From Rhizocola hellebori (GTDB lineage Bacteria; Actinomycetota; Actinomycetes; Mycobacteriales; Micromonosporaceae), in the NCBI RefSeq assembly GCF_016862955.1, contig NZ_BONY01000007.1, positions 144,562 through 208,561 on the forward strand: a stretch of 64,000 bases of DNA. The letters are read 5' to 3'. Positions 9,618 through 49,827 of the stretch are shown piece by piece; the stretch's first letter is position 1; each line of letters starts with the position of its first letter. Position numbers and translations under genes: made by a program. Below the pieces are notes generated by a model that worked only from the letters and a program-made list of their open reading frames with translations, was not told where the DNA came from and searched no databases.

Positions 9618-9624
9618 GGAACGC

Positions 9625-27147: not shown

Positions 27148-27882
27148 CTAAGCTTGTGCGGCCGCAGCGTCGAGCGCGGCGACCTCTGCCTTGCGCTGGT
27201 TGTAATACTGCGCCATCTCGTTGTTCGCGGCGACCGTCACGCGAAGTGACTCGACGAACCCGTCGATGCCACCGCCCGGAATGACGGCAAGCATGCTGTC
27301 ATCGGGAACCTCGGTGAACGTGCGCATGCCCTTGCAGCCCAACGACAGCACCGCCCGGCCGTCGTTCATCGCCGAGGGGATGGCCGCACACGCCGGCCGG
27401 CCCGTGGTGCGTACGGGCTCTGACGCCCAGCTTGCTGAGCCGGCGGCCTCGTGGTAGATCATCGCCTGGGCGGGCGTGAGCCACATCAGCACCGCGTCGG
27501 GCTGTTGCGGAAACTCCGCGAGCGGCCCGTAGACGATGCCGGACTTGCTGCCTGGTACACCCGGGATCTTGTCGCCTTCGTCGGGGGAGAGATAGCTGCA
27601 GCCGCACATGGCGTTGACCAGCCCGCCGATTTGTTCCATCACGGGATCGGGAAGCTCGAATCCCATCACCATCGCGCCGATCTGGCACTGGTGGTGCTGC
27701 TCGGCCGAGGCGTAGAAGACCGAGCTCTCCGCGAGCGGCCAGAATCCGCAGCTTGACGGCGACACGCGGGACACCTGCGGCACGAGACTGGGTGCTTCCT
27801 GTACAAACGCCAATGCCACCGGCGGCCTGCCGAGGCCGAGTGTTGTGGTGATTTCGTTTGCTTGCTGTGCAAATTCGGCCAT
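27148..27882 (-). CDS. DUF169 protein, copy 1
   Basis: 244 residues. DUF169 (COG2043) features: PPVALAFV near residue 20, SSCGFWP, HHQCQIGAMVMGF, MCGCSYLSPDEGDKIPG, GRPACAAIP, LGCKGMRTFTEV. The conserved Cys residues suggest a metal or thiol role but the family has no firm function; it is best known from anaerobes and archaea. Two more copies lie at 37239 and 49096. It is divergent from the ankyrin-merB1 pair, with two operator-like repeats in between. Confidence 0.9.
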   Translation of the reverse strand: MAEFAQQANEITTTLGLGRPPVALAFVQEAPSLVPQVSRVSPSSCGFWPLAESSVFYASAEQHHQCQIGAMVMGFELPDPVMEQIGGLVNAMCGCSYLSPDEGDKIPGVPGSKSGIVYGPLAEFPQQPDAVLMWLTPAQAMIYHEAAGSASWASEPVRTTGRPACAAIPSAMNDGRAVLSLGCKGMRTFTEVPDDSMLAVIPGGGIDGFVESLRVTVAANNEMAQYYNQRKAEVAALDAAAAQA

Positions 27883-28827: not shown

Positions 28828-29697
28828 ATGGATGGGTTTGATCTCGACATCGACGCGGTCGAGCGGGTCGGCGACTGCGCTTCGGCCTTGGTTCCCGTCA
28901 ATGGAATCAATATCATGACCGGAGCAGTCCCAGACAACGGCGCGTCAAGCCGACTTGATCCGCCGACGGCCCACGCGATTGGACAGGAACTTTCCCGCGC
29001 CTCGGCCGATGACGCCTACCCGGCACAACTCGCCGTTGGGGTGACAAGCCAGCGCCTCGTCCGGATATCAGTGGCAGGACGCGCGGTGCACAGGGCTATC
29101 CTGCGGTCTTTTGCCAGCAGGGGCTGTCGCCCCGACCGTGACGGCCTCGCGGCCGCGGCCGGCCAGCATGATCTGAACACATTGCTGGCTGAGCTACACG
29201 ATCACGACGTGATCAGGCTCGACGATCGCTGCAAGATCCGTGCTGCATACCCCTTCTCTGCTGTGCCGACCGCTCACGTGGTCGCCATACGGCAAGGCCC
29301 CACGGTCTACGCGATGTGTGCGATTGACGCTCTTGGCATGGCCACGATGCTCAACGAAGACATCGCGATCAGCTCCCGAGACCCGCAAACAGGTACACCC
29401 ATCAAGATAGACATTAGAGGCGGGCAGCCAGTTTGGGAGCCGTCGGAGACGGTCGTGTTTGTCGGGGCCTACCAAACCGCTTCTGCCGTAACGGAATCGG
29501 AAGGCGGCGACCAACCCGACAAAGCATGTGCGGTGGCCGCAGCAGATCGCTGTTGCGGGGTGATGAACTTTTTCGCCAGCGCCGACAGCGCCGATGCTTG
29601 GCAGCGTGCGAACCGGGACGTGCGTGGGCAAATTCTCAGTCAGCGGCAGGCTTTGCGGCTCGGCGATGACATCTTCGGAAATCTCCTGCGCACCTAG
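28828..29697 (+). CDS. merB: Organomercurial lyase, copy 1 (MerB family)
   Basis: 289 residues. Alkylmercury lyases break the carbon-mercury bond to give Hg(II) for MerA. The catalytic set is present: Cys164 and Asp167 in YAMCAIDALG, and Cys242-Cys243 in RCCGVMNFFAS (equivalents of Cys96, Asp99, Cys159 of the plasmid R831b enzyme). N-terminal 75 residues are extra compared with copy 2. The middle (AYPFSAVPTAHVVAI) is typical of actinobacterial MerB. GGGGGAGCG sits before the ATG. It is not next to merA; its neighbours are an ankyrin gene upstream and a glycosyltransferase downstream. Confidence 0.92.
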   Translation: MDGFDLDIDAVERVGDCASALVPVNGINIMTGAVPDNGASSRLDPPTAHAIGQELSRASADDAYPAQLAVGVTSQRLVRISVAGRAVHRAILRSFASRGCRPDRDGLAAAAGQHDLNTLLAELHDHDVIRLDDRCKIRAAYPFSAVPTAHVVAIRQGPTVYAMCAIDALGMATMLNEDIAISSRDPQTGTPIKIDIRGGQPVWEPSETVVFVGAYQTASAVTESEGGDQPDKACAVAAADRCCGVMNFFASADSADAWQRANRDVRGQILSQRQALRLGDDIFGNLLRT

Positions 29698-32849: not shown

Positions 32850-33235
32850 AGGGGTTATCCACAGCGCACGGCGCTGGCCGCGAGTTGCCCATCGTGTGGC
32901 GCAGGCTGGGCTCACGCCTTAGCCGGTCTGGCACAGACCTTAGGGCTCGCTTATACGGCCGCGTTGGATGATCCTGCGATAGAAGACCTCGCTACTGTGG
33001 TAGCCGGGCCGCTAACAGGTCATTCCGGCAATCGACGGGCGCGGACCGCGAGCGTCGGGCTGTTTCACCGCCAGAGTCTGGCCATGCGGTGCCCAGGCAC
33101 CGTGCACGGGCGGGCTTTGGATCTAGTGCGATTCAGTCATCTGTTGCCATTCTGCACCCGAATGATCGAATCTGGGTCGTCCAGTTACTATCGATCGTGC
33201 TACACATGGCAGAGCCAAGCACGAAGGAGGCTGCG
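32850..33235. other. Intergenic region before arsR-1
   Basis: No supported gene. GAAGGAGG serves the following arsR. No good copy of the shared operator is visible, in contrast to the promoter of the second arsR. Confidence 0.5.
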
Positions 33236-33598
33236 ATGACACCCTCACCGCAGACTGCCCCGCTGTTGCCGGCGACAGCGGATGGGGTCGACACCATGGC
33301 CAAATTCTTCCGCGCGCTCGGTGACCCATCCAGGCTGAGGTTACTCGAGTTTGTTCTGAGCGAGGAACACTCGGTCAACGAGTGTGTCGACTACATCGGA
33401 CTCTCCCAGGGCCGGATTTCCGCCCATCTGGCCTGTCTCGCAGACTGCGGCTTTGTTCAGGTACGCCGCTCAGGCCGGCATGCGTTCTACCGAGTCATAG
33501 ACGCACGAGTGGCTGAGCTTGTCACCCTCGGGCGCGCTTTTGCCCAAGACAACTGCGACGCGCTCGACGCCTGCCACCGCATCCCCGGGGGCAGCTGA
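33236..33598 (+). CDS. ArsR/SmtB-family metal sensor, copy 1 (CmtR-like / actinobacterial MerR type)
   Basis: 120 residues. Winged helix: FFRALGDPSRLRLLEFVL, YIGLSQGRISAHLACLADCGFV, VRRSGRHAFYRV. Cys67 and Cys71 (ACLADC) match the Cys57/Cys61 pair of Mycobacterium CmtR in the recognition helix, and Cys107/Cys113 in the C-terminal tail (NCDALDAC) could complete a thiolate site as Cys102 does there; Cys50 is extra. Mercury operons of Streptomyces use an ArsR-type repressor under the name MerR, so Hg(II) is a good candidate ligand (inference). Start with AAGGAGG. A near-identical paralogue lies at 36550. Confidence 0.9.
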   Translation: MTPSPQTAPLLPATADGVDTMAKFFRALGDPSRLRLLEFVLSEEHSVNECVDYIGLSQGRISAHLACLADCGFVQVRRSGRHAFYRVIDARVAELVTLGRAFAQDNCDALDACHRIPGGS

Positions 33599-35271: not shown

Positions 35272-35529
35272 ATGGGCCAAGCCAAGAGCGAGCATTCAGC
35301 TCCCACAGCGGCTGCTGTTGGCGGTGTGGGAGCGATGGTGGCGTGCTGCACCGTGCACATACTGGTGTTCGCGGGGATCGTTGGCGGCATCGGCGCTGGC
35401 GCGATCGGCGGGCTTGCCGTGGGCGCCGGCGTCGTGACTGCTGCGGCCACCTGGCTTGTGCTGGTGCTTGTTCGCCGTCGGCTCAATGGGAGAACACGCA
35501 CCGCGGAGGCCTCCTGCGGCTCCCGTTAG
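35272..35529 (+). CDS. Small membrane protein with Cys pair; candidate Hg(II) carrier
   Basis: 85 residues. Two membrane segments (GVGAMVACCTVHILVFAGIVGGIG and GLAVGAGVVTAAATWLVLVLV) and a short tail with one Cys. The adjacent Cys-Cys pair in the first membrane segment is the feature used by MerT, MerF and similar mercury uptake proteins to pass Hg(II) to MerA, but there is no overall match I can name. GGAGG before ATG. Two operator-like repeats in its promoter put it among the most strongly controlled genes here. Confidence 0.75.
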   Translation: MGQAKSEHSAPTAAAVGGVGAMVACCTVHILVFAGIVGGIGAGAIGGLAVGAGVVTAAATWLVLVLVRRRLNGRTRTAEASCGSR

Positions 35530-36549: not shown

Positions 36550-36924
36550 ATGCCGGTTTCGCACGTCGCGCCGCTGTTACCAGCAACACCGGACGGCGTG
36601 GACACGATGGCGAAGTTCTTCCGCGCCCTGGGCGACCCAACCCGGCTGCGGCTGCTGGAGTTTCTGCTGTACGAAGAGCACTCCGTCACGGAGTGCGTTG
36701 AATATATAGGGTTGTCCCAAGGCCGCATCTCCACCCATCTGGCATGCCTCGCCGACTGCGGCTATATCCAGGTGCGCCGCACCGGGCGACATGCGTTCTA
36801 CCGAGTCACCGACGCCCGGGTGGCGGAGCTTGTGACCCTTGCCCAAGCGTTCGCCCAAGACAACTGCGATGCTTTGGCGGCATGCCAGCGCATCTCAGCG
36901 ACCAATCATAAGGAACCCGCCTAG
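36550..36924 (+). CDS. ArsR/SmtB-family metal sensor, copy 2
   Basis: 124 residues, very similar to the protein at 33236 across FFRALGDPTRLRLLEFLL, CVEYIGLSQGRISTHLACLADCGYIQVRRTGRHAFYRV and AQAFAQDNCDAL. Cys49, Cys66, Cys70, Cys106 and Cys112 are all kept, so both copies should bind the same soft metal. GGGAGG is upstream. Its own promoter has an operator-like repeat at 36480. It stands alone, followed by about 300 bases without a gene, and faces the HgcAB-like operon's last gene. Confidence 0.9.
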   Translation: MPVSHVAPLLPATPDGVDTMAKFFRALGDPTRLRLLEFLLYEEHSVTECVEYIGLSQGRISTHLACLADCGYIQVRRTGRHAFYRVTDARVAELVTLAQAFAQDNCDALAACQRISATNHKEPA

Positions 36925-37238: not shown

Positions 37239-37961
37239 TCAGCGCTCGACGTCAACGGCCGCAAGCTGCTCCTTTTGTTGCTGGTAGTAGCGGGTCATCG
37301 CGTGGTTGGCCTTCTGCGTGCCTTCCACCGCTGCGGTGAAGCGCTCCAGCCGCTGCCCTGGCACCACTGAGAGCATATGGTCGTCGGCGACCTCGGTGAA
37401 GGTGCGCATTCCTGTGCAGCCAAAAGACATCGTGGGCACCGCATCCGCCGATGCCAGCGGCAGGGCAGCACACGCGGGCCGTCCGGTGACCGCCGTTGAG
37501 CCGGCTGCCCAACTTGCCGTACCTGCAGCCTCGTTGAACAGCATGGCCTGCTTAGGTGACAGCCACATCAGCACCAGATCGGGCGGGAGGGGATGCTGCG
37601 CGAGCGGACCATAAACGATGCCGTTGCTTGGACCGGCCATGGACGGCACTTTGTCAGCCTCGATCGGGTCCAAATAGGAGCACTCACACATCATGGTGAC
37701 GATGTCGCCCAGCGTGCGATAGGTCTCCGCCGGAAGGTCGAAGCCCATCACCATCGCCCCTAGTGCGCAGTTCAGGTGCGCGACGGCGGAGGCGAAGAAG
37801 GTTCCGTGTTCGGCGTCGCGCCAGAAGCTGCATGCGGATGGGCGCGGTTGGGCTGCTGCAGGGAGACCGTCTGGTGCGCTGTCGACAAAGGTCAGCGCGA
37901 TCGGGGCGGACCCCAGATCTAGTGCAGAGATCAGGCGTTGGGCGATGACGTGGTGTCTCAT
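37239..37961 (-). CDS. DUF169 protein, copy 2 (last gene of the HgcAB-like operon)
   Basis: 240 residues from ATG at 37961, with AGAAGG upstream (a GTG at 37985 overlapping the ATPase stop is possible). Family features: APIALTFV, SACSFWRDAEHGTFFA, HLNCALGAMVMGFDL, MCECSYLDPIEADKVP, GRPACAALP, FGCTGMRTFTEV. More divergent from copies 1 and 3 than they are from each other. It begins 20 bases after the P1B ATPase stop, making a co-transcribed set with the corrinoid protein. DUF169 function is unknown; the conserved Cys residues suggest metal binding. Confidence 0.9.
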   Translation of the reverse strand: MRHHVIAQRLISALDLGSAPIALTFVDSAPDGLPAAAQPRPSACSFWRDAEHGTFFASAVAHLNCALGAMVMGFDLPAETYRTLGDIVTMMCECSYLDPIEADKVPSMAGPSNGIVYGPLAQHPLPPDLVLMWLSPKQAMLFNEAAGTASWAAGSTAVTGRPACAALPLASADAVPTMSFGCTGMRTFTEVADDHMLSVVPGQRLERFTAAVEGTQKANHAMTRYYQQQKEQLAAVDVER

Positions 37962-37981
37962 CTGACCTTCTAGGGAGACGA

Positions 37982-39949
37982 TCACACCGGCTCGCTGCCG
38001 GGGACCTTAGGGTTGTATCGAAGCACCGTTGCCGAGTTGAGCACGACTGAGATGAAGCTGGCAGCGTGGAAGAGTACTGCGGTCCCGGGCGAGATGAGCC
38101 CGAACAGCGCCAGGATCAGGCCGCCGATGTTGTAGGCGGTCGCAAACAGAATGTTGAGCCGGATGGTGGAGATACCCCTACGCGCGAGCTTCATCGCAGC
38201 AAGGACTCGGTTGAGGTTGTCGCCGTGCACCACCACGTCGGCTGCCAGCGCGCTCACTTCGGCGCCCGCCGTCACCATGGCTATGCCGACATCAGCGGCG
38301 GCAAGCGCGGTGGCATCGTTGATGCCGTCGCCGACCATGGCGACGGTGTGACCTTCGCGTTGCCGCATCTGCACCTGATCGAGCTTGGCCTGAGGTGTGG
38401 CCTGTGCGCGGTAGGCGATGCCCAGTTGCTGTGCAACGGCGCGGGCTGGGTCGTCGCGGTCGCCGGTGATCATGACGATCTGTTTCACCCCAAGGCGTTT
38501 CAGCCCGGCGATGACCTCGCTCGCCTCGCGGCGCGGCTCGGCGAGGAAGCCGAGCAGGCCGATGATGACACCGTCCCTGATCAGATAGGCGATGGTGCGG
38601 CCCTCGGCTTCACGCCGCAGCGCAATCTCACGCACAATGCCGGTGATGGTGACACCGATCTGATCCAGATAACGTTCGTTGCCGACGACGAGAGAGTGCT
38701 GCTGGAACGTGGCTTTGACACCGTGCCCCGCGGCCAGTTCGAACGCGTCCGGGTCAGGCACCACCATGCCCTGCGCCTCAGCGGTTGTGACCACCGCACG
38801 CGCTAGCGGATGGCTGGACTGCTTTTCGGCGATTGCCGCCAGCTGCAAGACCTCCGCGTCGGTATAGCCGAACCCGTCGATGGCATTGAGTGCCGGGGTA
38901 GATGAGGTCAGGGTCCCGGTTTTGTCGAGCAGCACGATGCTCGCGCGACTGGCGGCCTCGAGACTGGCCGCCCCCTTGACCACGATGCCGCGCCGGGCGG
39001 CGTTGCCGACCGTGGCGATGATGGCCAGTGGGGTGGAAGCCGCGAACGCGCAAGGCGTGATGACGAGCAGGATGGTCGCCACCCGCTCCAGGGAGCCGGT
39101 CAGCAGTCCAGCGACCGCGGCCACGAGCAGGACCAGCGGCAGGAACCACAGCAGGAACAGATCCACCGTGCGCTTGGCCGGGATGTGCTCGCGTTGTGCC
39201 TTACGCATGAGCGCGACTATGCGTGCCACAGTGTTCTGGTCGGCGGTTTTGGCCGTGCGGATCTGGATGGCGCCTTGCAGGTTGTAGGTTCCGGCAAACA
39301 CTTCCTCGCCTATGCCGCGCTCGGCAGGCACAGCTTCGCCGGTGAGCATCGACTCGTCGATGGTGGTGGCGCCGGTGAGGATCACGCCGTCGACGGGCAT
39401 GCGCTCACCAGGATGCACGATGACCGTCTGTCCGATCTGGACATGTTCGACCGGAACAAGTTGCGTCTTGTCGCCGGGGATGGCCACGCGGGCCTGGCGG
39501 GGTACCAATTTGAGAAGCGCCTCCACGGCGGATCGCGCGTGCCGGCCAGTCCAGGCCATCAGAGTCTCGCCGACCCAAAGGATGAACACCACCCACGATG
39601 CGTACCAATATTCGCCCTCATAGACGACGGCGACGAGCGCGATCGTGATGAACACTTCGGTGTTCAGCTTGTTGCGTAGCTTGACTTCCGTGCTGACCAG
39701 AGTCTTGAGCGCGATCCAGAACATCGGGTAACCCAGCGTCAGCCCGACTACCCCGATGACGACCGCGACATCTGTCCAGGGTGGACGGTCGATGAAGAGG
39801 TTGATGATCGCGCCAGAGATCATGCATGCGGCTGAGGCGACCAGGAAGCGGAGGTTGCGCTTGAGCAAGCGTTCCTGGCTCAGATCAGCCTCGCCGAAGA
39901 GTCCTGCGGTCGAGGGTTCTGTCGCGACAGGTGTAGCGGTGGCGGACAT
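37982..39949 (-). CDS. P1B-type heavy-metal ATPase, TPC motif, no N-terminal HMA domain
   Basis: 655 residues. P-type features: TGEAVP, phosphorylated Asp342 in LDKTGTLT, SSHPLA (His380), MITGDRDDPA, MVGDGINDATALAAADVGIAM. The membrane metal site that is CPC in most copper or zinc pumps reads TPC (298-300, VITPCAFA). There is no N-terminal HMA or His-rich metal-binding domain. The metal cannot be read from this; TPC is found in less-studied P1B groups. It follows the HgcAB-like gene by 18 bases and precedes DUF169 copy 2, so it likely exports or loads the metal these proteins handle. Confidence 0.92.
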   Translation of the reverse strand: MSATATPVATEPSTAGLFGEADLSQERLLKRNLRFLVASAACMISGAIINLFIDRPPWTDVAVVIGVVGLTLGYPMFWIALKTLVSTEVKLRNKLNTEVFITIALVAVVYEGEYWYASWVVFILWVGETLMAWTGRHARSAVEALLKLVPRQARVAIPGDKTQLVPVEHVQIGQTVIVHPGERMPVDGVILTGATTIDESMLTGEAVPAERGIGEEVFAGTYNLQGAIQIRTAKTADQNTVARIVALMRKAQREHIPAKRTVDLFLLWFLPLVLLVAAVAGLLTGSLERVATILLVITPCAFAASTPLAIIATVGNAARRGIVVKGAASLEAASRASIVLLDKTGTLTSSTPALNAIDGFGYTDAEVLQLAAIAEKQSSHPLARAVVTTAEAQGMVVPDPDAFELAAGHGVKATFQQHSLVVGNERYLDQIGVTITGIVREIALRREAEGRTIAYLIRDGVIIGLLGFLAEPRREASEVIAGLKRLGVKQIVMITGDRDDPARAVAQQLGIAYRAQATPQAKLDQVQMRQREGHTVAMVGDGINDATALAAADVGIAMVTAGAEVSALAADVVVHGDNLNRVLAAMKLARRGISTIRLNILFATAYNIGGLILALFGLISPGTAVLFHAASFISVVLNSATVLRYNPKVPGSEPV

Positions 39950-39967
39950 GGCTTGACCGAACCTTCC

Positions 39968-41023
39968 TTAGGAGATTGCATCCACCGGGCACTGCTGAAC
40001 ACACGCGTAACAACTCAGGCAGCCCTGCGGGTCGAAGAGTGTTGCTTTGTGGTTGTCTTTGAGGCTCATCGCGCCTTTGGGGCAAACCTTGACGCAGATG
40101 TCGCAGCCATCGATGCACTTCGGCTCATCAACCACTGGCAGGAATCCTGCTGGGGCGAGCGTGGCGGGGTACAGGAAACATAGCAATTGCTGCTTGCACA
40201 CATCGGTCGGCGACCAGCTCGGGAAGTCGATCGCGACGAGGACGCCCATGGCGGCAATGGTGACCGTCCAAAAAATAACGCCCCACAGGTTCACGTCGGC
40301 AAGCCGCGCCAGAGCGCCGGACGCCGCGCCAAGCATCACTGCGAGCGGAATTCCTTGCGGCAGGCCAGGTTGAGCCGGCATACGTGGGTACACCAAAGCG
40401 AAAAGCACCGACAGCACATACGACAGGCCAGCGATAGCCAGACCGGCCCGCCATCCCATGATGAGCCCGGCCGGGACTCCCAATATGACGGCTGGCCACA
40501 GGCCCGCTCCGACACCCATCTCGACACGACGGCGCCACGGGAAGCTCACCACGTCGGCAACAAGCCGCGGGAAGCTCTGTTCCAACCACTGCGGCAGATC
40601 GTCGATCTCGATGGGCCCGAACACGACTCGCCAACCGGTGCGGTGGCGGACTTCTTTGACATTGACGCCGGGAGCCGCCAGCCGGGGCAGAACGAGCCGG
40701 TGGTGGTCCACGAGCTTGTCTATTCCCGATAGTTTGATCGCTGCCTCGACCTCGTCGGTACCGAAGTGACCGCCCGCCGATGCACACCACACGTTGACTC
40801 CACCGGTCGGTGCGATGAGCAGATAGCAGTCGTAGTTGGCAAGGACCCGGGATACCAGCCGCACGGTGTGATCGAAGTTCGCGGTGACGAACACCGGTGA
40901 GTTGCGGTCCGGGTTGCCGAATGTGCGGAGTCCTGGCTCGACCGGGAACGGGAACGACCGGAATATCAGCTGCGCGGCGGACCGCAGCCCGCCGGTGATC
41001 AGGCTGCTGCTTGCTGCAGGCAT
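39968..41023 (-). CDS. Fused HgcA-HgcB-like protein: corrinoid domain, membrane domain, two [4Fe-4S] sites
   Basis: 351 residues from ATG at 41023 (GAGGGG upstream, 25-base overlap with the methyltransferase gene). Residues 40-150 are the HgcA/CdhD-type corrinoid-binding domain: SPVFVTANFDHTV, then the cap-helix signature NVWCASAGGHF (77-87), whose Cys80 in HgcA ligates cobalt, then VLPRLAAPGVNVKEV and GWRVVFGPIEIDDLP, all positions typical of HgcA. HgcA has NVWCAAGK; here Lys is Gly. Residues 166-268 give about four membrane helices as in HgcA. Residues 300-348 are a double [4Fe-4S] ferredoxin like HgcB: CIDGCDICVKVCP and CLSCYACVQQCP. HgcB's C-terminal Cys pair is absent. Fused HgcAB-like proteins occur in other genomes and are not proved methylators. 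Confidence 0.9.
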   Translation of the reverse strand: MPAASSSLITGGLRSAAQLIFRSFPFPVEPGLRTFGNPDRNSPVFVTANFDHTVRLVSRVLANYDCYLLIAPTGGVNVWCASAGGHFGTDEVEAAIKLSGIDKLVDHHRLVLPRLAAPGVNVKEVRHRTGWRVVFGPIEIDDLPQWLEQSFPRLVADVVSFPWRRRVEMGVGAGLWPAVILGVPAGLIMGWRAGLAIAGLSYVLSVLFALVYPRMPAQPGLPQGIPLAVMLGAASGALARLADVNLWGVIFWTVTIAAMGVLVAIDFPSWSPTDVCKQQLLCFLYPATLAPAGFLPVVDEPKCIDGCDICVKVCPKGAMSLKDNHKATLFDPQGCLSCYACVQQCPVDAIS

Positions 41024-41673
41024 TTGCTGCCCCTCACGATGTGAAACGAGCCGCCATGAAACGACTCGACCCCAACGTGTTCCAGCCCGCGCTGGCCGAG
41101 CTTCTCGGCGAGGTCCTCCGTGTGATGGGTGGTGGTCTGGGTGACCGCATACGTGAGCGCCATCAGGGGTAGGCGCTGTAGCTGATACCACAACCGGCTC
41201 AGCCTTGCGGCCGGGGCGACCTCGTCTGCGACTATGAGCGTGCCGCCGGGGCGAAGGAGCCGGTACGCCTCATCGAGAGCGAACCGCTCCTCGGCCTTGC
41301 TGAGCTCGCTGAGGACCAGGCAGCACACCACGAAATCGAAGCTGCGGCCGGCGAGTACCCGATCCAGACCGGTGATGTTCAGCTCATGCAGCTCCAACCG
41401 GCCCGTGCCCAGCTCGGGAGCAAGCTTGCGTCGGGCAACGTCAAGCATCTGCTTGGAGCGATCGACACCGGTGACGGTGCACCGGCGGGCGAGCAGCAAA
41501 CTGGTGACAGCCCCTGTTCCACAACCGATTTCAAGGACCTCGCTACCTTCGTTGACGCGGTCTGCAACCTGGCGGTAGAGCCGGCCGATCCGCCCGAGAC
41601 TGATCATCCTCATACCGAGGTCATAACGTCCTGCGCTGGTCTCCAGCAGCTTCATAAATACGAACGAGGACAC
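40999..41673 (-). CDS. SAM-dependent class I methyltransferase next to the corrinoid protein
   Basis: 224 residues. Motif I VLEIGCGTGAV (47-55), acidic residue after motif II in VTGVDRSKQML, FDFVVCCLVLSEL, LLRPGGTLIVADEV. UbiE-like overall. The product ends CLQQAAA and its last codons encode the start of the HgcAB-like gene, so the two are translated together. HgcA takes a methyl group onto cobalt; here this enzyme could be the donor partner, or it could methylate a small molecule. From memory, NCBI uses the name corrinoid protein-associated methyltransferase (CpaM) for such neighbours. Confidence 0.88.
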   Translation of the reverse strand: MSSFVFMKLLETSAGRYDLGMRMISLGRIGRLYRQVADRVNEGSEVLEIGCGTGAVTSLLLARRCTVTGVDRSKQMLDVARRKLAPELGTGRLELHELNITGLDRVLAGRSFDFVVCCLVLSELSKAEERFALDEAYRLLRPGGTLIVADEVAPAARLSRLWYQLQRLPLMALTYAVTQTTTHHTEDLAEKLGQRGLEHVGVESFHGGSFHIVRGSKCLQQAAA

Positions 41674-41679
41674 AAGAAA

Positions 41680-42177
41680 TCACCCGGCTCGGCTTGTTGA
41701 GGCAGCATCTACGCTCTCTGGTGTCGGTGCGGCACAGCAGTCTTGGGTGCATCCTTCGAGGCACTGCTGGCCCGGCGGGGCTGGCGGTGGGCCAAACGCC
41801 CGCAGGCAGAGCGTGACCGCGACTGCCGTCGCCGGGAGGATCGGATATCCCAACGCACCCACCATCAACAAGACTGCGCCGGCTACCAGCTGCCATGGCA
41901 CCCTGCGGGTCGCAAGCAGCTGGCGGGCATATCCCAGCAACATGGGGGCGCCGAACAGGACAGCGATCCAAAGAACTCGAAGCGCGGCCAGCCTGGCGGT
42001 GGTGGACTGCGTGATAACAGGTGCCAGGAGCCCGGCGAGGGTCAACAACGCACTCGCCAGCGCGCTGAATTTGACCAACGTTCGCCGCCTTCGATTGCCG
42101 AGCTCGACGCTTTCCGCAAAGGTGCGCGGCACCTCATCGGGACCGCAGCACCCCGGGTCGTATCTCCTGCCCATCAT
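41680..42177 (-). CDS. Cys-rich small membrane protein heading the HgcAB-like operon
   Basis: 165 residues. N-terminal YDPGCCGPDEV, three or four membrane segments (FSALASALLTLAGLLAPVI, LRVLWIAVLFGAPMLLGY, LVAGAVLLMVGALGYPI, ATAVAVTLCLRAF), and a cytosolic-looking tail CLEGCTQDCCAAP. Cys pairs at both ends suit soft-metal capture and transfer, as in MerT/MerC-type carriers, but I find no named family. GAGAGGG before ATG. The methyltransferase gene begins six bases after its stop. Confidence 0.75.
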   Translation of the reverse strand: MMGRRYDPGCCGPDEVPRTFAESVELGNRRRRTLVKFSALASALLTLAGLLAPVITQSTTARLAALRVLWIAVLFGAPMLLGYARQLLATRRVPWQLVAGAVLLMVGALGYPILPATAVAVTLCLRAFGPPPAPPGQQCLEGCTQDCCAAPTPESVDAASTSRAG

Positions 42178-42384
42178 TGGCCCTCTCGATACAGGCGTCG
42201 CACAAATCGACTTACATCACCAGTCTCTGTGCACAACTTGTCCCATGTCAATAGGATGTATCTTAAAAAGCAGATACGTTTTTTGGAACGTCCTGACCTG
42301 CGAGATGTCCTGCTTGTCGGTGGTTGCAACGCCCGTAGGCCCGCCTGCCACGGGGGATGACAGACGGGCCGACGAGCGGCGCTT
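42178..42384 (-). promoter_or_regulatory. Promoter region of the HgcAB-like operon
   Basis: Contains an inverted repeat GTATCT (42258-42263) / AGATAC (42272-42277) with an 8-base AT-rich centre, followed on the minus strand by TTGACA (42251-42246), a possible -35 element; no good -10 stands out. The shared CCGGATA-type operator is not seen. GGCCCG (42338) pairs with CGGGCC (42370) in a loose hairpin that may end the upstream gene. Confidence 0.4.
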
Positions 42385-42885
42385 TCAGCGCGCGAACGCG
42401 CCTGGGCGCAGCAACCGAAACAACACAATGCCGGTGATGATCAAGGTGACTATCTTGAATTCCAGCCCGTACAGCGGCAGCGAGGCGGCGAAAAACGTGG
42501 TGCCCAATGTCGCCAGCAGCGGCAGCGGGCAGCCGGGGCAGGCGAAGGCGCTAAAGCCCAGCAGCAGCCCGCCGCCGACCGTGCAAACACCGGATCTTGC
42601 GGCCGCGCGGCGGGCCTTGAGAAGCCGGAAGCTCTGCACCATGAGAACCGCCGCGGTGACCGCCAGCAAGACGTTGAGCACGATCATCCCGGTTAAGTAC
42701 GGGAGCCCGAAGTACTCGGTGTACCCACTGAACGTGCCCAGTTTCGTGGTGGTCAGGTCTGCTTCGCGCCCACCCTCGCGCATATCGAACCACATGTAGA
42801 GGCCGAATATCACGACGCTGAGTGTGAGAACGCTCCGCGTACGAAGGATCGGCAAGAGCCGGGACCACCGGCCGCCAGGCGTCAT
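42385..42885 (-). CDS. Membrane protein with CPGCP motif
   Basis: 166 residues from ATG at 42885, AAAGGAGG upstream. Four to five membrane segments; the third region reads GFSAFACPGCPLPLLATLG, a Cys-Pro-Gly-Cys-Pro motif at or in the membrane that could bind a soft metal or act in thiol exchange. I do not know the family. It follows the haloperoxidase-like gene by 46 bases on the same strand. Confidence 0.72.
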   Translation of the reverse strand: MTPGGRWSRLLPILRTRSVLTLSVVIFGLYMWFDMREGGREADLTTTKLGTFSGYTEYFGLPYLTGMIVLNVLLAVTAAVLMVQSFRLLKARRAAARSGVCTVGGGLLLGFSAFACPGCPLPLLATLGTTFFAASLPLYGLEFKIVTLIITGIVLFRLLRPGAFAR

Positions 42886-42931
42886 CGTGCCAACCTCCTT
42901 TCTCATTGCCGCTCCGTGTCGCGGTGTCCGC

Positions 42932-44440
42932 TCAACCCAGCCCGAGGAAGTACAGCTGACACTTGAGCCACACCTGTGTGGCCACCAGCCGGCCCAAGGA
43001 CGCGCCAGTGGTGATGTCGTCGCGGTAGTGAACTCCACCCCAGAGGCGCGACAGCCCGGTGTCGTCGGCCATGGCGGAGTACGTTGCATAGTTGAGTAGG
43101 ACATCATTTGCTGGTGCGAAGCCAGGTTCGGCCACCGATGACAAGGCTGGGACCGTGACAGTGAAGCCGAAGTAGTCGCTTCCCTTGAACAACTTCATGG
43201 TTTCGGCCCAGGCCGCAGAGAAGGTGGTGTGCCCCGAGTTGAAGGCCGGGAACGGTGGGGTCGGGAAATGCCGTGGTTTGTAGGGGTGCCATGTGCCACC
43301 ATCGATGAGCTGGGTGCCCAGGCCGGGGCCTGCCCAGGCGCTCACTTGCTGGCCGTTGAACAGCCTGCGGATCCCGCTGATGGGCCGGACAGAGGTGAAA
43401 GCGCGCTTGTTGTCCCAGACGGCGATGCTTGAGTCGAACATCGCGTTGGTCACAGCGAAGAACAGCTTGACGTCCTGGTCCAGGGTGTGCTGGTCGCGTG
43501 CCGACACGAACTGCACGAACTCGCATAGATGCGAGGGTGGCGGCGGTTGAACCGTGTTCGGGCCGTCGGGCCAGTACGAGACAACGGCCTTTTGGCGATC
43601 GGTGAGGTTGGCGCTCAGCGACAGGATGTCGAGAGCCTGGTCGATGTAAGCCTGCGTGCCGAACTGGGCCGGGGGAACCAGGGACCGGTTTATCGAACCG
43701 GACGCCATCGCGAACGGCACCACCTGCCCCCAGTACGGCCCTCGATACGACTGCGTCACCGTCTGGCCGAACAGGTCCACGTAAGTCAGCGGCTGCCAAT
43801 GGCTTGGGTCGGACAGCGCCGCCGGGTTGAACGGGGCATTGACCACCATCGGCTGGTTGAGAGGTAGGTAGCCGGTGTAATCCTCGTAGGCGCCGGCGGC
43901 CAGGTTGCCCAGCTGGTTGGATCCATCGTTGTGGCGGTATGCCAGCAGCCCTGCGGCCGCGGTGACGCCCACGCCTGCGGGTGAGGTGGTGTCGGTGGGG
44001 TTGAGTGCAGGGTTATAGCCGAGGGACTGCATGAAGGCGTCGAATATCGGCTTCCGAGCCGGGTAGAGGTCGACGCAGGTTCGGTAGGCCGCGTAACTCA
44101 TCGCCTGGGTTCTGTTAGCGGCGGTCCGCTCCAGCAACGGGCGACGGAGCGCTCCGCCATACCGCGTGCCCGCGGCCAGCGTGTCGTAAGCCGCCCACGC
44201 GTCGTACATGGCGGTGTGCACGATGGCTAACGAGCGGGCCCACGGTCCAGGGCCAGCAGGATCCTGGCGGACGGCGTCGTTCACCTGCTTGTTCCAGCGC
44301 ACAACTATGGTCTCGCCCGCCGCTGCCGCCGGTCGGGGGGTGGCAATCGCCCCGCCGACGGCTCCCACGCCGAGCGCCGCTAGGGCAGCGCCGGAACCCT
44401 TTAACAGGTTCCGGCGGCTGACCGAGTCAGGGGTTGACAT
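42932..44440 (-). CDS. TAT-exported vanadium haloperoxidase / PAP2-like protein
   Basis: 502 residues. Twin-arginine signal: SVSRRNLLKGSGAALAALGVGAVGGAIATPRPAAA. The vanadate/phosphate-binding motifs of the haloperoxidase-PAP2 family appear in order: KRAFTSVRPISG (Lys-x6-Arg-Pro), FPAFNSGHTTFSAAWAE (SGH), and GVHYRDDITTGASLG (His and Asp). Likely acts outside the membrane as a halide-oxidising or phosphatase-like enzyme. Its start lies inside the 3' end of the exported protein gene upstream. Link to mercury is unknown; haloperoxidases can act on natural products. Confidence 0.85.
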   Translation of the reverse strand: MSTPDSVSRRNLLKGSGAALAALGVGAVGGAIATPRPAAAAGETIVVRWNKQVNDAVRQDPAGPGPWARSLAIVHTAMYDAWAAYDTLAAGTRYGGALRRPLLERTAANRTQAMSYAAYRTCVDLYPARKPIFDAFMQSLGYNPALNPTDTTSPAGVGVTAAAGLLAYRHNDGSNQLGNLAAGAYEDYTGYLPLNQPMVVNAPFNPAALSDPSHWQPLTYVDLFGQTVTQSYRGPYWGQVVPFAMASGSINRSLVPPAQFGTQAYIDQALDILSLSANLTDRQKAVVSYWPDGPNTVQPPPPSHLCEFVQFVSARDQHTLDQDVKLFFAVTNAMFDSSIAVWDNKRAFTSVRPISGIRRLFNGQQVSAWAGPGLGTQLIDGGTWHPYKPRHFPTPPFPAFNSGHTTFSAAWAETMKLFKGSDYFGFTVTVPALSSVAEPGFAPANDVLLNYATYSAMADDTGLSRLWGGVHYRDDITTGASLGRLVATQVWLKCQLYFLGLG

Positions 44441-45023
44441 TGATGCCGCCCAGGTAGACCCGTGGACCGAGCAGGCCCTGCGTGCCCGAGAGCAGCGCTC
44501 CGCCGAACATCTTCCAGTCCGAGCGGAAGGTCGATTGTGTGGAGATCGCGGTGAGCAGGCCGCCGTTCCACAGCGGCGTGGTGTAGTGCATCTCGAACCG
44601 GTCGGCCGTTACTCCCCGGTTATCGATGCCGATCGCGGCGAAGTCATGCTCGATGTCTTCCAGAATGATGCCTGTGAGCAGCATCGTGATGGATCGCATC
44701 CGGCCCTGGGCGGTGATCGTCCGCGCCGAGCGGTTGACGACGTAGGACAGGGATCCCACCGAGAACATCTCCATCGCGAACGAGCCGATCACTCCCGGGA
44801 TCGAGCCCGTCGTTCCGACCGCACATGTGGTCAGCACCGGATTCAGGTTGAACGGCGACGGGTGAAATGCTGTCGACATGTCCGCGTACATCCCGGCGCC
44901 GTAGTCGCCGAAGTTGGGTTCACTGGCGGCCGCAGCTTGCCCGGTCGCGGCCAGCACGGTGGGGACTGCGGCGGCGAGCGCCGCCCCGAGCGTGACGTTC
45001 TTTAGCACGTCTCGACGTTCCAT
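44427..45023 (-). CDS. Exported protein of unknown family (paralogue of 33857)
   Basis: 198 residues from ATG at 45023 (AAAGGTG upstream). Signal peptide MERRDVLKNVTLGAALAAAVPTVLAATGQAAA, with RRDVLK resembling a TAT signal. The mature protein shares ITAQGRMRSITM and LEDIEHDFAAIGID with the unsignalled protein at 33857. The overlap with the haloperoxidase-like gene implies coupling; a cofactor or partner role is possible. Function unknown. Confidence 0.72.
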   Translation of the reverse strand: MERRDVLKNVTLGAALAAAVPTVLAATGQAAAASEPNFGDYGAGMYADMSTAFHPSPFNLNPVLTTCAVGTTGSIPGVIGSFAMEMFSVGSLSYVVNRSARTITAQGRMRSITMLLTGIILEDIEHDFAAIGIDNRGVTADRFEMHYTTPLWNGGLLTAISTQSTFRSDWKMFGGALLSGTQGLLGPRVYLGGINVNP

Positions 45024-45437
45024 TGTGGACACCTTTCTGAGCCGATCGGAACTTGACTCGGTCACTGTGCATGGGCGCCCATCACGGCCACGCCGCGCTG
45101 GCGTGACAACGCCGTCGCGTGCGCGTTACGACAGTCCTGAAAAGCGCCCGCGGCGCTGCTCATTGCGCCCGACAACCACCGAGCGAATGCCTACGAAACT
45201 TTGACGGTCGCTATAGGACGCCTCGCAGCCGGTGGGTCATTCTGTTGTGGTACCGATGGTCCACTCCGCTGACCGGCCGGATTGCTCGGCGTCATAGTCC
45301 GCTGGATGCAGGCCCGATCATGGCGCACCGGTGCCTGCGTCAAAGAAGGAGGGATTTCGCTCAACCCGCAAGCTACGGCTCGGTAAAGTGCGATCCAAAA
45401 GTCCGGTAGGTGCATGAGATGGGCGGGAGGGCGCGGT
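45024..45437. other. Divergent promoter region
   Basis: About 400 bases between the exported-protein gene (minus) and the GntR gene (plus). No clear copy of the shared operator and no supported gene. A regulatory site for the adjacent GntR protein is plausible but not identified. Confidence 0.4.
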
Positions 45438-46412
45438 GTGCGGGTGAACATCGCCGTCAGCCGGGAGCTGGGCATCCCTCTCGGCACCCAGGTGCGCGAT
45501 CAGATCGTCGTGGCGATCTCCAAGGGCGATCTCGTTCCTGGTGACAGGCTTCCGACGATCCGGCAGCTTGCCGACTTTCTCGATCTCAACCGTAATACGA
45601 TCGCCCAGGTCTACCGAACCTTGGAGCAGGAGGGTTATCTGTCCACCCGTGGCGGCGGGGGGACCAGCGTCGCGGACACCTCGGCGACCCGCACGGCTGT
45701 GCGCATGCAGGAGCTGCATCAGCTATTGCGGGAGGCACTTCACGCTGCTGAACGCAAGGGATTCACCGCCCGCGAATTTAGCGAGGTCGCTCTTTACGAG
45801 GCAGCGCAATGGCAAGCTCTGCGGCATAAGGCATTCCTCGTTGTGGACGAATATCAAGGCGAATTAGAGTATCTTTCCCACGCAATTCGCCGCCTTATGC
45901 CCGGTGCCATCGTGCATAGTATTCTCCTAAGCGACCTCGTCAAGCAAGGAACACCGAACGTCGGATCGATGCCGGAAGCAGACTTCGCGCTCGTCCCGTT
46001 CTACTGCTTGGAACGAGCTCGCGCAGCATTGCTGGCCTCGGGAATTCCGGTCATGGCCGCCGGCATAGGGCCTTCGGTCGCCACGATTCGGCACATCGCA
46101 GAGCAAGCGCGCGGAAAAGACGTGGCGATCGTTTGCACTGAACCAGCCGGGCCGCCCTACATGGAGCGTGCAATGCGCCACGCTCGAATCAAATTCCGAC
46201 GCACCCGACATGCCTTTCTGGGCCAGCCAGACTTCGACGAGGTGGTTGAGGCGAGCGACGTCATCGTTGCCTCGGAAGGATCGGCGGAGTCAGTCGGCAG
46301 GCGTGCAGGGACCAAGCCGGTGCTCGTGTTCTCGGCCCTGCTGGACGAGGAGACTTTGGTCGCCATCCACCAGTACACGGAGACGCTGGCCAATGCAGAC
46401 AACGAGGGTTGA
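45438..46412 (+). CDS. GntR-family transcriptional regulator (YtrA-like N terminus)
   Basis: 324 residues from GTG at 45438, with GGGAGG upstream; ATG at 45414 is an in-frame alternative. Winged helix: LGTQVRDQIVVAISKGDLVPGDRLPTIRQLADFLDLNRNTIAQVYRTLEQEGYLSTRGGGGTSVA. The C-terminal 220 residues (AFLVVDEYQGELEYLSHAIRRL, EADFALVPFYCLERARAALLASGIPV) resemble a periplasmic-binding or response-receiver-like alpha/beta fold, unlike most YtrA members, which are short. Ligand unknown. It sits between the haloperoxidase set and merA. Confidence 0.82.
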   Translation: MRVNIAVSRELGIPLGTQVRDQIVVAISKGDLVPGDRLPTIRQLADFLDLNRNTIAQVYRTLEQEGYLSTRGGGGTSVADTSATRTAVRMQELHQLLREALHAAERKGFTAREFSEVALYEAAQWQALRHKAFLVVDEYQGELEYLSHAIRRLMPGAIVHSILLSDLVKQGTPNVGSMPEADFALVPFYCLERARAALLASGIPVMAAGIGPSVATIRHIAEQARGKDVAIVCTEPAGPPYMERAMRHARIKFRRTRHAFLGQPDFDEVVEASDVIVASEGSAESVGRRAGTKPVLVFSALLDEETLVAIHQYTETLANADNEG

Positions 46413-46638: not shown

Positions 46639-48042
46639 ATGGATTACGACCTGGCGATCGTTGGATCGGGCGGGGCGGCGTTCGCCGCCGCAATAGCCGC
46701 CAGGCGCGCCAACGCCTCCGTGGTGATGGTGGAACGTGCTGACATAGGCGGCACGTGTGTCAACACGGGCTGCGTGCCGTCGAAGGCGTTGCTAGGGGCG
46801 GCCGAGGCGCGGCATGTCGCTTTGTCCGCGGACCGGTTTGCCGGCCTACACAGCGCGACCCTGGGCTTGGCCCTGCCTGAGCTCATCGCAGGTAAGGACA
46901 AGCTGGTCGAGTCCATGCGCAACGCGAAGTACGCTGATCTTGCAGACGAGTACGGTTGGCGGATCATCGGGGGCACTGCCCGTTTCGTCGACGGACCTGC
47001 CCTTGAAGTGACCACTCACGACGGCGCGACCGCCGAATTGACCGCGGCGCACTACGTGGTGGCCACCGGAGCCGCAGCGTGGGCGCCACCCATCCCTGGT
47101 CTTTCCGCAGCTGGCTACCTCACCTCCACCACGGCTATGCAGCTGCCTACCTTGCCGAAATCGATGATTGTGATGGGCGGCAATGCCATCGGTTTGGAGC
47201 AAGCACAGTTGTTCTCGCGGCTCGGCGTCGCCGTGACCCTGGTGGAGGTGCTAGACCGGTTGGCGCCCTTCGGCGAACCCGAGGCGTCACAGGCGATCGC
47301 CGGTGTCTTCGCCGACGAAGGGATCAAAGTGCACACTGGTGCCGAGGTGATCCAGGTGACACGAGAGGGCACCGTGGTGGCGGTGCACATGTCGCCCGGC
47401 CACACCCTTCGCGCCGATCATCTGCTGGTCGCGACCGGTCGCCGCCCCGTCACCGATGGCCTCGGGCTCGACTGCGTCGGGGTGAAACTGGGGGCAAAAG
47501 GCGAGGTCATGGTCGACGACCAGCTCCGCACCGACAATCCTCGCATCTTCGCCGCCGGTGACGTCACCGGCCATCCGCAGTTCGTTTACGTCGCGGCCAA
47601 CCACGGCACTATCGCAGCGGCAAACGCGTTGTCGCAAGCGGGCCAAAGCGTCGACTATCGATACCTGCCCCAAGTGACATTCACGAGTCCGGCAATGGCC
47701 TCGGTGGGCCTGACTCACGCTCAGGCCAAGCAGCAGGGGTTTCGGGCCGACAGCCGGGTACTGACGCTGCAGCACGTGCCTCGTGCCGTGATCAACCGCG
47801 ACACTCGCGGGATGGTCAAGCTGGTTATCGATTCGGCTACCGGGCGCCTGTTGGGCGTGCACGCGGTCGCTGAGGGGGCTGGCGAGCTTGCCGCTGCCGC
47901 CGTCTACGCACTGGCAGCGGCGATGACAGTCGACCAGGTGGCCGGCATGTGGTGCCCATACCTGACCATGGCTGAGGCGATCAAACTCACGGCACAAACC
48001 TTCACGCGGGACGTGTCCAAGTTGTCATGCTGCGCCGCCTGA
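46639..48042 (+). CDS. merA: Mercuric reductase
   Basis: 467 residues. NADPH-dependent flavoenzyme that reduces Hg(II) to Hg(0). FAD motif DYDLAIVGSGGAAFAAA, redox-active GTCVNTGCVPSKAL, NAD(P) motif MIVMGGNAIGLEQAQLFSRLG, RIFAAGDVTGHPQFVYVAA, and the C-terminal Cys pair KLSCCAA that binds Hg(II) from the partner subunit. There is no N-terminal HMA domain (short form). Two operator-like repeats precede it. merB copy 2 follows after 46 bases, so a demethylation-reduction pair is transcribed together. Confidence 0.95.
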   Translation: MDYDLAIVGSGGAAFAAAIAARRANASVVMVERADIGGTCVNTGCVPSKALLGAAEARHVALSADRFAGLHSATLGLALPELIAGKDKLVESMRNAKYADLADEYGWRIIGGTARFVDGPALEVTTHDGATAELTAAHYVVATGAAAWAPPIPGLSAAGYLTSTTAMQLPTLPKSMIVMGGNAIGLEQAQLFSRLGVAVTLVEVLDRLAPFGEPEASQAIAGVFADEGIKVHTGAEVIQVTREGTVVAVHMSPGHTLRADHLLVATGRRPVTDGLGLDCVGVKLGAKGEVMVDDQLRTDNPRIFAAGDVTGHPQFVYVAANHGTIAAANALSQAGQSVDYRYLPQVTFTSPAMASVGLTHAQAKQQGFRADSRVLTLQHVPRAVINRDTRGMVKLVIDSATGRLLGVHAVAEGAGELAAAAVYALAAAMTVDQVAGMWCPYLTMAEAIKLTAQTFTRDVSKLSCCAA

Positions 48043-48088
48043 CAAATGACCGTCGCTATTGGTTCTGCATCAATCAAACGGGAGTCCG

Positions 48089-48757
48089 ATGACGACGATT
48101 CGCGTGGGGGTCGCGGCCGAGTGCATCGCCGCGCTTAGCCCACTGGCACGGCGGCTGCACCAAACGATTCTGCACCATTTCGCCATCAGTGGGCGCCCGC
48201 CGCTGATGGCAGCTCTCAACACCGATAAGCCACTGCGCGAGCTGCACGACCGTGACGTCATACAGCTCGACGACACTGGCGAGATCCTTGCCGCCTATCC
48301 GTTCTCAGCCATCCCGACACCGCACACCGTCGCGATCGCGGATGGCCCCACCGTTTATGCGATGTGCGCGATCGACGCACTTGGCATTGCCGCGATGCTC
48401 GGCCGTGACATCACCGTCCACTCAGTGGACCCGCAGTCCGGCGACAGCATCACGGTCATCATTCGCGGAGGACAAGCGGAATGGATACCCGAGGACGCGG
48501 TTGTCTTAGTGGGATCAACGGCACCAGCGGACGAGGATTGTTGTCATGTCCCCGCAGCACAGATCTGCTGTGGTGTCATCAATTTTTTCGCAGGTACCCG
48601 CACCGCCTCGGCCTGGCTGAAACGCCACGTCAGCGTGCGCGCCGTGATCGTAGACCCGGTGAAGGCCCTCCAGATGGGCAAAGACCTCTTCGGCCCGCTG
48701 CTGAGCGACTCTGAGTCAGGGGCGCCCATCAGGCACCGTCCCGCCGTCGCTCGCTGA
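48089..48757 (+). CDS. merB: Organomercurial lyase, copy 2 (MerB family)
   Basis: 222 residues from ATG at 48089 (GGGAG upstream). Catalytic Cys93 and Asp96 in YAMCAIDALG, and Cys160-Cys161 in QICCGVINFFAG. YPFSAIPTPHTVAIADGPTVYAM matches copy 1 closely. An extra Cys pair (EDCCHV) precedes the second active-site segment. The standard merA-merB arrangement supports organomercury detoxification as the immediate role. Confidence 0.93.
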   Translation: MTTIRVGVAAECIAALSPLARRLHQTILHHFAISGRPPLMAALNTDKPLRELHDRDVIQLDDTGEILAAYPFSAIPTPHTVAIADGPTVYAMCAIDALGIAAMLGRDITVHSVDPQSGDSITVIIRGGQAEWIPEDAVVLVGSTAPADEDCCHVPAAQICCGVINFFAGTRTASAWLKRHVSVRAVIVDPVKALQMGKDLFGPLLSDSESGAPIRHRPAVAR

Positions 48758-49095: not shown

Positions 49096-49827
49096 TCATC
49101 GGGCTGTCTCCATCGCGGCCATGTCGGCTTTGCGCTTGGTGTAATACGCTTCCATATTTTCGTTGGCCGAGACCGTGGTGCGCAGCGAGGCAACGAAGTC
49201 ATCGAGGCTCGCCCCTGGTACCACGGCAAGCAGCCGATCGTCTGCGACCTCGGTAAAGGTCCGCATGCCCTTGCATCCCAGAGATAGAACTGGTCTACCG
49301 TCGCTTATGGACAGCGGAATCGCCGCGCATGCGGGCCGGCCGGTGGTCCGCGCCGGCGCTGAGGCCCAGCTGGCCGAGCCGATCGCCTCTTGATAGAGCA
49401 TTGCCTGAGCGGGCGTGAGCCAAAGCAGTACCGCGGCCGGAGTCTGCGGGAACACAGATAGCTGTCCGTAGAGGATACCGGATGCGGCGGCCTCGACCTT
49501 CGGGATCTTCTCGCCCTCTTCCGGCGAGAGATATTGGCAGCCGCACATCGCTTCCACCAATCCTCCGATTTGCTGCACGACGACATCCGGCAAGGCGAAA
49601 CCCATCACCATGGCACCGATCTGGCAATGGTGATGTTGTTCTGCCGAGGCGTAGAAAACCGAGGACTCGGCTCGCGGCCAGAAGGCACAACTCGACGGCG
49701 AGATCCGGTCGGCCTGTGGCACATCGACGGGTGCCTCACGCATGAATGCCAACGCTACTGGCTGCCTGTCCAGGCTCAACAACGAGATGATTTCGGAAGC
49801 ATGCTCATGATATCTGGCCATCATCAA
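49096..49827 (-). CDS. DUF169 protein, copy 3
   Basis: 243 residues. Very like copy 1: PVALAFM, SSCAFWPRAESSVFYASAEQHHHCQIGAMVMGF, MCGCQYLSPEEGEKIP, GRPACAAIP, LGCKGMRTFTEV. Converges on merB-2. Three consecutive ATG codons mark the start and there is no strong RBS. No clear copy of the shared operator upstream; the palindromic CACACGTATGTG (49903-49914) is the only notable motif. Confidence 0.88.
   Translation of the reverse strand: MMMARYHEHASEIISLLSLDRQPVALAFMREAPVDVPQADRISPSSCAFWPRAESSVFYASAEQHHHCQIGAMVMGFALPDVVVQQIGGLVEAMCGCQYLSPEEGEKIPKVEAAASGILYGQLSVFPQTPAAVLLWLTPAQAMLYQEAIGSASWASAPARTTGRPACAAIPLSISDGRPVLSLGCKGMRTFTEVADDRLLAVVPGASLDDFVASLRTTVSANENMEAYYTKRKADMAAMETAR

Follow-up and report, generated by a model that had tools for sequence, protein, structure and literature searches.

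What would a fused HgcA-HgcB-like protein do in an actinomycete, and which methyl acceptor would it serve? The question touches the native role of the HgcA family as a whole, and arises here from a 64,000-nucleotide stretch of the Rhizocola hellebori genome (contig NZ_BONY01000007.1, positions 144,562 to 208,561; hereafter the window, in whose numbering positions are given), which carries at 37239-42177 a minus-strand operon encoding such a protein. We report three new observations: the operon lies in an island of mercury resistance (mer) genes; the methyltransferase gene cpaM is paired near-constantly, and often fused, with HgcAB-like genes; and one branch of the family combines a cysteine-bearing tail with linkage to ArsR regulators. 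From these sequences we tentatively read the system as a corrinoid methyltransferase fed by S-adenosylmethionine (SAM) and acting on a soft metal, with mercury as the first candidate in these actinomycetes, and hold this reading with somewhat less than even confidence.

A five-gene operon encoding an HgcAB-like fusion

An earlier note on this DNA had described a tightly spaced, five-gene operon on the minus strand. This description was confirmed: all five open reading frames (ORFs) are open as placed, and Pfam and NCBIfam assign CdhD-type corrinoid, 4Fe-4S, SAM methyltransferase, P-type metal ATPase and DUF169 domains to their products. The genes are as follows.

41680..42177, minus strand: CysMem, a small membrane protein with an N-terminal GCC and a Cys-rich C-terminus, first gene of the operon
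40999..41673, minus strand: CpaM, a class I SAM methyltransferase (corrinoid protein-associated; NF043040, 257.6 bits, cut-off 180; SAM motif GCGTG)
39968..41023, minus strand: HgcAB-like fusion of 351 amino acids (aa), with a corrinoid domain bearing NVWC (Cys80), a membrane domain and two [4Fe-4S] motifs
37982..39949, minus strand: P1B-type metal ATPase (TIGR01525, 506 bits; TPC instead of CPC in an alignment to CopA; two Cys in total)
37239..37985, minus strand: DUF169 protein (COG2043; PF02596, 80.8 bits; six Cys; 48-51% to the other two copies in the window)

Successive genes are spaced by +6 (CysMem-cpaM), -25 (cpaM-fusion), +18 (fusion-ATPase) and -4 bp (ATPase-DUF169). The fusion gene probably starts at ATG 41023 (MPAASS..., 351 aa), which fits the lengths of homologues and overlaps the end of cpaM, the 407-aa ORF opened by GTG 41191 being probably over-long.

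The homology of the fusion to its relatives is beyond chance (phmmer E as low as 3.5e-222). The protein scored 320.4 bits against the HgcAB-like family NF043039, above the cut-off of 285, and remained under the cut-offs for HgcA (NF040863, 146.3 of 275 bits), HgcB (NF040864, 39.5 of 99 bits) and the large subunit of the corrinoid iron-sulfur protein (CFeSP; PRK04165, 91.9 of 306 bits). Together with the domain analysis, these scores bear out the proposal of an HgcA-like corrinoid domain, a membrane domain and a ferredoxin in one chain. The segment NVWCASAGGHF occupies residues 77-87 of the 351-aa chain, as previously read. Relative to the HgcA cap motif NVWCA(A/G/S)GK (PMC7536318), its Cys is kept and the GK is absent; the Lys-to-Gly change to which the earlier note drew attention is thus real, but it is not special to the window protein, GK being found in none of 50 HgcAB-like rows and in 20 of 21 HgcA rows of the tree set described below. 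The chain ends CPVDAIS with no Cys beyond the last cluster Cys, so that it has neither HgcB Cys73 nor the C-terminal Cys pair, whose absence had been remarked on. Both are required for mercury methylation in ND132 (PMC7305189), and their loss suggests the altered chemistry that had been proposed. In an AF2 model of the fusion, residues 79-84 and the ferredoxin part are only weakly predicted.

For the phylogeny, 50 HgcAB-like rows, hand-picked from the 80 loci of the survey below, the window and 91 proteins, were aligned with 21 HgcA, two methyltransferase-HgcA and 11 CFeSP rows; one broken sequence (L098) was excluded from the HgcA rows, and L136 and P0088 are long branches. All 21 HgcA rows formed one clade (99/91) with the window fusion outside it. 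The fusion also fell outside the CFeSP clade (split 100/100), which, with its low PRK04165 score, contradicts the explanation that it is a CFeSP/CdhD paralogue of acetyl-CoA metabolism. The phylogeny called for by the earlier note thus came out against a place in the CdhD group, and we give this explanation practically no credence. The HgcAB-like rows formed one clade with a support of 93/51, for which reason their single origin is not firm, and the window group fell with 11 Cys-tailed rows and P0046 (81/81, not starred), yet is itself without a Cys tail. The kind of protein is not new, since the fusion and CpaM are already curated (NF043039, NF043040) and a tree already in print (PMC9948709) is rooted with the fusion from Streptomyces sp. 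CNQ-509; hgcA is also known in other Actinobacteria classes (PMC7438021).

CpaM is the constant partner of HgcAB-like proteins

That the corrinoid protein has a methyltransferase of its own, as had been suggested from the operon, was strengthened by a survey of loci. One scan of a genome collection returned 173 relatives, the best 80 of which were kept, and at 77 of the 80 cpaM was found no more than 1 kb upstream of the HgcAB-like gene. Of the remaining three, L043 and L072 have almost no upstream sequence. The third is the one clear exception to the pairing: at L033 an ArsR gene lies directly upstream of the HgcAB-like gene (8588-10104), with no cpaM in 9 kb of sequence. In the window the two genes adjoin and overlap, and in three proteins (P0067, L062 and L080) CpaM and the HgcAB-like protein form a single chain that scores above both cut-offs. 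A search with P0067 gave 1051 matches at E <= 1e-60; the 120 listed, query included, all carry methyltransferase and PF03599 domains and nearly all carry 4Fe-4S domains, P0159 showing none. The tree places two methyltransferase-HgcA chains devoid of the ferredoxin part, P0088 and L136, on the side of HgcA. One of them (L136, 781-2469) comes from a Lokiarchaeota genome that also has an HgcAB-like gene, and forms a long branch near the base of HgcA. Among actinomycetes, CpaM exceeded its cut-off in three of three genomes with the fusion versus none of ten Actinomycetota genomes with HgcA; in eight of these ten a methyltransferase matched more weakly, with at most 114 of 180 bits.

Since purified, true HgcAB has been demonstrated to take its methyl group from SAM (PMC11588087), the simplest reading is that CpaM likely loads the corrinoid from SAM in the HgcAB-like branch. 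No Cys outside the SAM motif is conserved among 92 aligned CpaM rows; CpaM is therefore unlike an enzyme that itself binds the metal. A search by a single phrase found no paper on the activity of CpaM.

The operon sits in a mercury resistance island

The mercury setting of the operon had escaped the earlier note: merA, two merB genes, two further DUF169 genes and two ArsR genes surround it. On one side merA is 4.5 kb and merB1 5.9 kb away, and on the other merB2 lies at 7.5 kb.

46639..48042, plus strand: merA, mercury(II) reductase (TIGR02053, 564.5 bits, cut-off 454.45; C-terminal LSCCAA)
48059..48757, plus strand: merB1, alkylmercury lyase family (PF03243, 113.7 bits, cut-off 27; alignment to MerB2 5c17)
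28828..29697, plus strand: merB2, alkylmercury lyase family (PF03243, 116.2 bits, cut-off 27; 48% to merB1)
49096..49827, minus strand: DUF169 copy b, adjoining merB1 (PF02596, 78.6 bits)
27148..27882, minus strand: DUF169 copy c, near merB2 (PF02596, 94 bits)
36550..36924, plus strand: ArsR/SmtB metalloregulator with a CLADC motif (NF033788, 79.7 bits, cut-off 55; a 65% relative lies beside merA in L003)
33089..33598, plus strand: second ArsR regulator (NF033788, 76 bits, cut-off 55)
45414..46412, plus strand: GntR-type regulator upstream of merA (PF00392, 55.6 bits; 50% and 46% relatives)
42236..42255, minus strand: promoter/operator-like site CCTATTGACATGGGACAAGT upstream of CysMem, its sole occurrence in the window

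This merA is the only one of 21 matches to exceed the MerA cut-off in the 10.77-Mb genome of the window. That hgcAB and merB occur in one genome is already known, because such cases are reported in PMC9948709, where three metagenome-assembled genomes (MAGs) have both and where a hot-spring scaffold with both and Geobacter bemidjiensis are mentioned; according to PMC8261052, MerB-only genomes do not encode HgcAB. The literature searched yielded no report of a mer island that contains an operon with an HgcAB-like fusion.

The detoxification setting, among two merB genes and merA, would suit a reverse route in which cob(I)alamin strips the methyl group from methylmercury and passes it on, as a second path of demethylation beside MerB. 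The constant partner of the fusion is, however, a SAM methyltransferase, and the synthesis of SAM from S-adenosylhomocysteine and methylcobalamin is uphill. MerB, moreover, already performs demethylation, and we regard this route as very unlikely.

The three DUF169 genes of the window are 48-70% alike, one being in the operon and two within ~1 kb of a merB gene; DUF169 may serve to handle organomercury compounds or soft metals. CysMem matched no family in Pfam or NCBIfam. Its N-terminal GCC is kept in the relatives at L003 and L004, two other actinomycete loci treated below, and its Cys-rich tail is found in the window copy only; as the tail is not kept in L003 and L004, it was ruled out as a substitute for the HgcB tail.

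Upstream of CysMem, the counterpart of CCTATTGACATGGGACAAGT differs by one base in L003 and by three in L004, as counted by eye. The conserved site falls between CysMem and the ORF at 42385-43107, which was left out as a first gene of the operon. An ArsR operator common to the merA and CysMem promoters was also sought: GATATCCGGATAC is present before merA (46592) and, in L003, between merA and the ArsR gene, but not before CysMem, where a half-site shorter than GATATCCGGATAC occurs at 42250 with one mismatch. A consensus scan gave no promoter-like and one terminator-like site, below the counts in shuffled sequence.

Further neighbours were noted. An 85-aa membrane protein with a CC pair (35272-35529, plus strand), whose gene lies between those of the two ArsR proteins, looks by eye like a small mercury transporter and has no family above cut-off. 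Two minus-strand ORFs (42932-45065), which separate the operon from the GntR gene and merA, encode a vanadium chloroperoxidase-like protein and a product whose start resembles a twin-arginine signal. Genes for non-ribosomal peptide synthetases and a C39-type ABC exporter (72-25202) lie beside the island.

Related actinomycete loci are rare and scattered

Actinocrispum wychmicini (L003, L106), of a different family, carries the same operon with merA at 5.7 kb and merB at 8.0 kb, and its merA is the sole MerA match at E <= 1e-110 in that genome. Assuming random places and independent genomes, the probabilities of linkage are 0.0008 and 0.0009. The third context, L004, is a MAG of the Micromonosporaceae in which the operon has no DUF169 gene beside the pump and in which GntR and ArsR genes are present. 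The P1B ATPase gene belongs to the operon in all three. The GntR gene is divergent from CysMem in L003 and L004 and lies before merA in the window; the ArsR gene is beside merA in L003, beside the GntR gene in L004 and past the end of the operon in the window. The Actinocrispum MerB (L106, 12590-13699, minus strand) is extended at its N-terminus by ~200 residues, which show a weak DsbA-like match.

Further copies of the fusion occur in Lentzea (P0012) and in Streptomyces sp. CNQ-509 (P0016). Within the window's family, two of 354 genomes have the fusion (that of the window and G769), as do one of 390 in the Actinocrispum family and one of 61 near relatives, window included. Phylum-wide, 11 of 396 genomes matched at E <= 1e-40; only the window exceeded the HgcAB-like cut-off, and the other ten read as HgcA. 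None of 72,556 plasmid records matched the HgcAB-like protein at E <= 1e-10 or CpaM at E <= 1e-15, and no viral contig matched the peptide patterns. The scattered occurrence of the fusion suggests horizontal transfer.

The regulators and neighbours of these islands bear on a second explanation, in which the SAM-CpaM-corrinoid route is kept but delivers methyl groups to a soft element other than mercury (As, Sb, Pb, Cd, Sn, Se or Te), the mer genes simply being part of a general metal island. Both ArsR proteins of the window are closest to metal-sensing ArsR models, the best named being that of the Cd/Pb sensor CmtR, whose cut-off is not reached (58.9 of 150 bits for the ArsR at 36550..36924). 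The Actinocrispum island, as read from its sequences, holds an arsenate reductase-like fusion and a chromate-transporter-like gene, an arsenic-responsive ArsR controls hgcAB of ND132 (PMC10349881), and the mercury cysteines of HgcB are absent from the fusion. Set against this, the closest dedicated metal genes in two of the three actinomycetes are merA and merB, and CpaM is without a conserved metal-binding Cys set. We consider another element as acceptor possible, if doubtful.

A Cys-tailed branch is linked to ArsR regulators

In 17 of the 80 loci, the last cluster Cys of the HgcAB-like protein is followed by a GVCSCPTC-type tail, at the place of HgcB Cys73 as judged by eye and often with further Cys. 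An ArsR gene lay within 2.5 kb of 15 of these 17 loci versus one of the 63 others (Fisher p 3e-13), a contrast favoured by the origin of one of the ArsR queries in the Cys-tailed branch and by a limit of 2.5 kb chosen after the loci had been viewed; the ArsR gene of L003, ~5 kb upstream, lies beyond this limit. All 80 loci were classed separately, the tail pattern itself having matched 136 of 156 proteins with the other 20 uncounted. In 10 of the 17 Cys-tailed loci, a secreted-looking protein (X) and a CC membrane protein (Y, GCCGSPMLP) precede cpaM; the resulting ArsR-X-Y-cpaM-HgcAB cluster recurs in Planctomycetota, Nitrospirota and others (L005, L007, L010, L012, L014, L027, L028, L030, L036 and L037). 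None of five X and Y proteins scanned matched Pfam above a cut-off. The ORF at 42385-43107 of the window was compared by profile with the Planctomycetota-type Y protein (probability 3.7) and with the CC membrane protein of L106 (6.0), neither comparison being significant. In the flanks of 15 Cys-tailed loci, 140 ORFs were called and 110 scanned, the commonest products being ArsR (4), P-type ATPases (3) and sulfatases (3); the ORF caller overlooked several ArsR genes that are visible by tblastn.

This split also informs a third explanation, in which the methyl acceptor is a metabolite, lipid or cofactor of the cell rather than a metal and the metal neighbours are there by chance or for regulation. 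It would agree with the breadth of the family across archaea and bacteria, CpaM being its constant companion, and with the 63 of 80 loci that have no CSCPTC-type tail, just one of which has an ArsR gene within 2.5 kb. The ArsR genes at 15 of 17 Cys-tailed loci argue against it, as do the P1B ATPase in all three actinomycete contexts and the mer genes in two; such an acceptor appears quite unlikely.

A proposed SAM-fed corrinoid methyltransferase for a soft metal

Our favoured reading remains that of a SAM-fed corrinoid methyltransferase for a soft metal. The five genes would form one transcript. The ferredoxin part would reduce cob(II)alamin to cob(I)alamin, which CpaM would methylate from SAM, with Cys80 as the lower cobalamin ligand. 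The methyl group would then pass to a thiolate-bound soft metal, mercury or other, delivered by the Cys-bearing partners CysMem and DUF169; the P1B ATPase would export a metal species, and the ArsR and GntR regulators would switch the operon jointly with the mer genes. It is the mer island that puts mercury first among the candidates, as evidence of linkage, not of activity.

Several observations weigh against this reading. HgcB Cys73 and the C-terminal Cys pair are absent from the fusion. The metal pump predicted by the earlier note is indeed a P1B-type metal ATPase (TIGR01525), but a mercury pump is not supported, since it has TPC and not CPC. Both MerB proteins stay under the NCBI MerB cut-offs (66.4 and 63.6 of 193 bits), and methylmercury made beside two merB genes would be a futile cycle. 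No CobN match was found in the window's genome, which leaves the aerobic B12 route unsupported; eight B12-binding domains there are above cut-off. Neither merA nor merB was found on the 24-kb contig of L004, whose genome gave a marginal MerB match at best and none to MerA at E <= 1e-110, and common descent could account for the mer linkage in both other genomes. Across 11 genomes of the Cys-tailed sister branch, MerA exceeded its cut-off in only two and no clear merA or merB was seen near the HgcAB-like genes, and most loci of the family have no nearby metal gene of the kinds searched. Finally, Pyrococcus furiosus and Methanococcoides methylutens, which have fused HgcAB, made no methylmercury according to PMC5893877 and PMC7319479. 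The division of the family into a Cys-tailed, ArsR-linked branch and branches lacking such a tail suggests that these cultured negatives need not represent it as a whole: the loci from Thermococcaceae (L045) and Methanococcoides (L068), which stand in for the tested proteins as the nearest relatives in our set of the two tested organisms, have a KLNLxG tail without the Cys73-like Cys set.

Our confidence is kept low by the lack of the HgcB cysteines, the negative results in culture, the TPC motif of the pump, the third context without merA and the prospect of a futile cycle. It is lower still for the fuller proposal, which we consider rather unlikely, that in aerobic actinomycetes SAM-fed corrinoid methylation of Hg(II) or methylmercury is wired into merA/merB resistance through a fused HgcAB with its own methyltransferase, and that further candidate mercury methylators belong to the sister branch with the Cys tail and ArsR linkage, present in Planctomycetota, Nitrospirota and others. 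Were the favoured reading true, the operon would join resistance to mercury with methylation of that metal or another soft one. A SAM methyltransferase adjoining, and often fused to, HgcAB-like proteins makes SAM-to-corrinoid loading directly testable, and the split between proteins with and without the Cys tail suggests where, beyond the known carriers of HgcAB, metal methylation could be sought.

Comparison with known systems

The large subunit of CFeSP, which is soluble, shares the fold of the corrinoid domain with the window fusion; NVWC is found in none of its 11 rows, and it forms a separate clade. ArsM-type metalloid methyltransferases have a conserved metal-binding Cys set, which CpaM lacks (92 aligned rows). 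The window CpaM itself does not differ in any way that we found from its curated family (NF043040, 257.6 of 180 bits). With the HgcA and HgcB pair, the window protein has in common the NVWC cap motif with its Cys, the membrane domain and the 2[4Fe-4S] ferredoxin; it differs in being one chain and in lacking GK, Cys73 and the Cys pair. The HgcAB-like family NF043039, of putative function, has the same corrinoid, membrane and ferredoxin parts in one chain. Compared with other members of this family, the actinomycete branch ends straight after the last cluster and is encoded in an operon with a P1B ATPase and, in two of three contexts, DUF169. As for the mer genes of actinomycetes, what distinguishes those described here is that merA and merB share an island with the operon.

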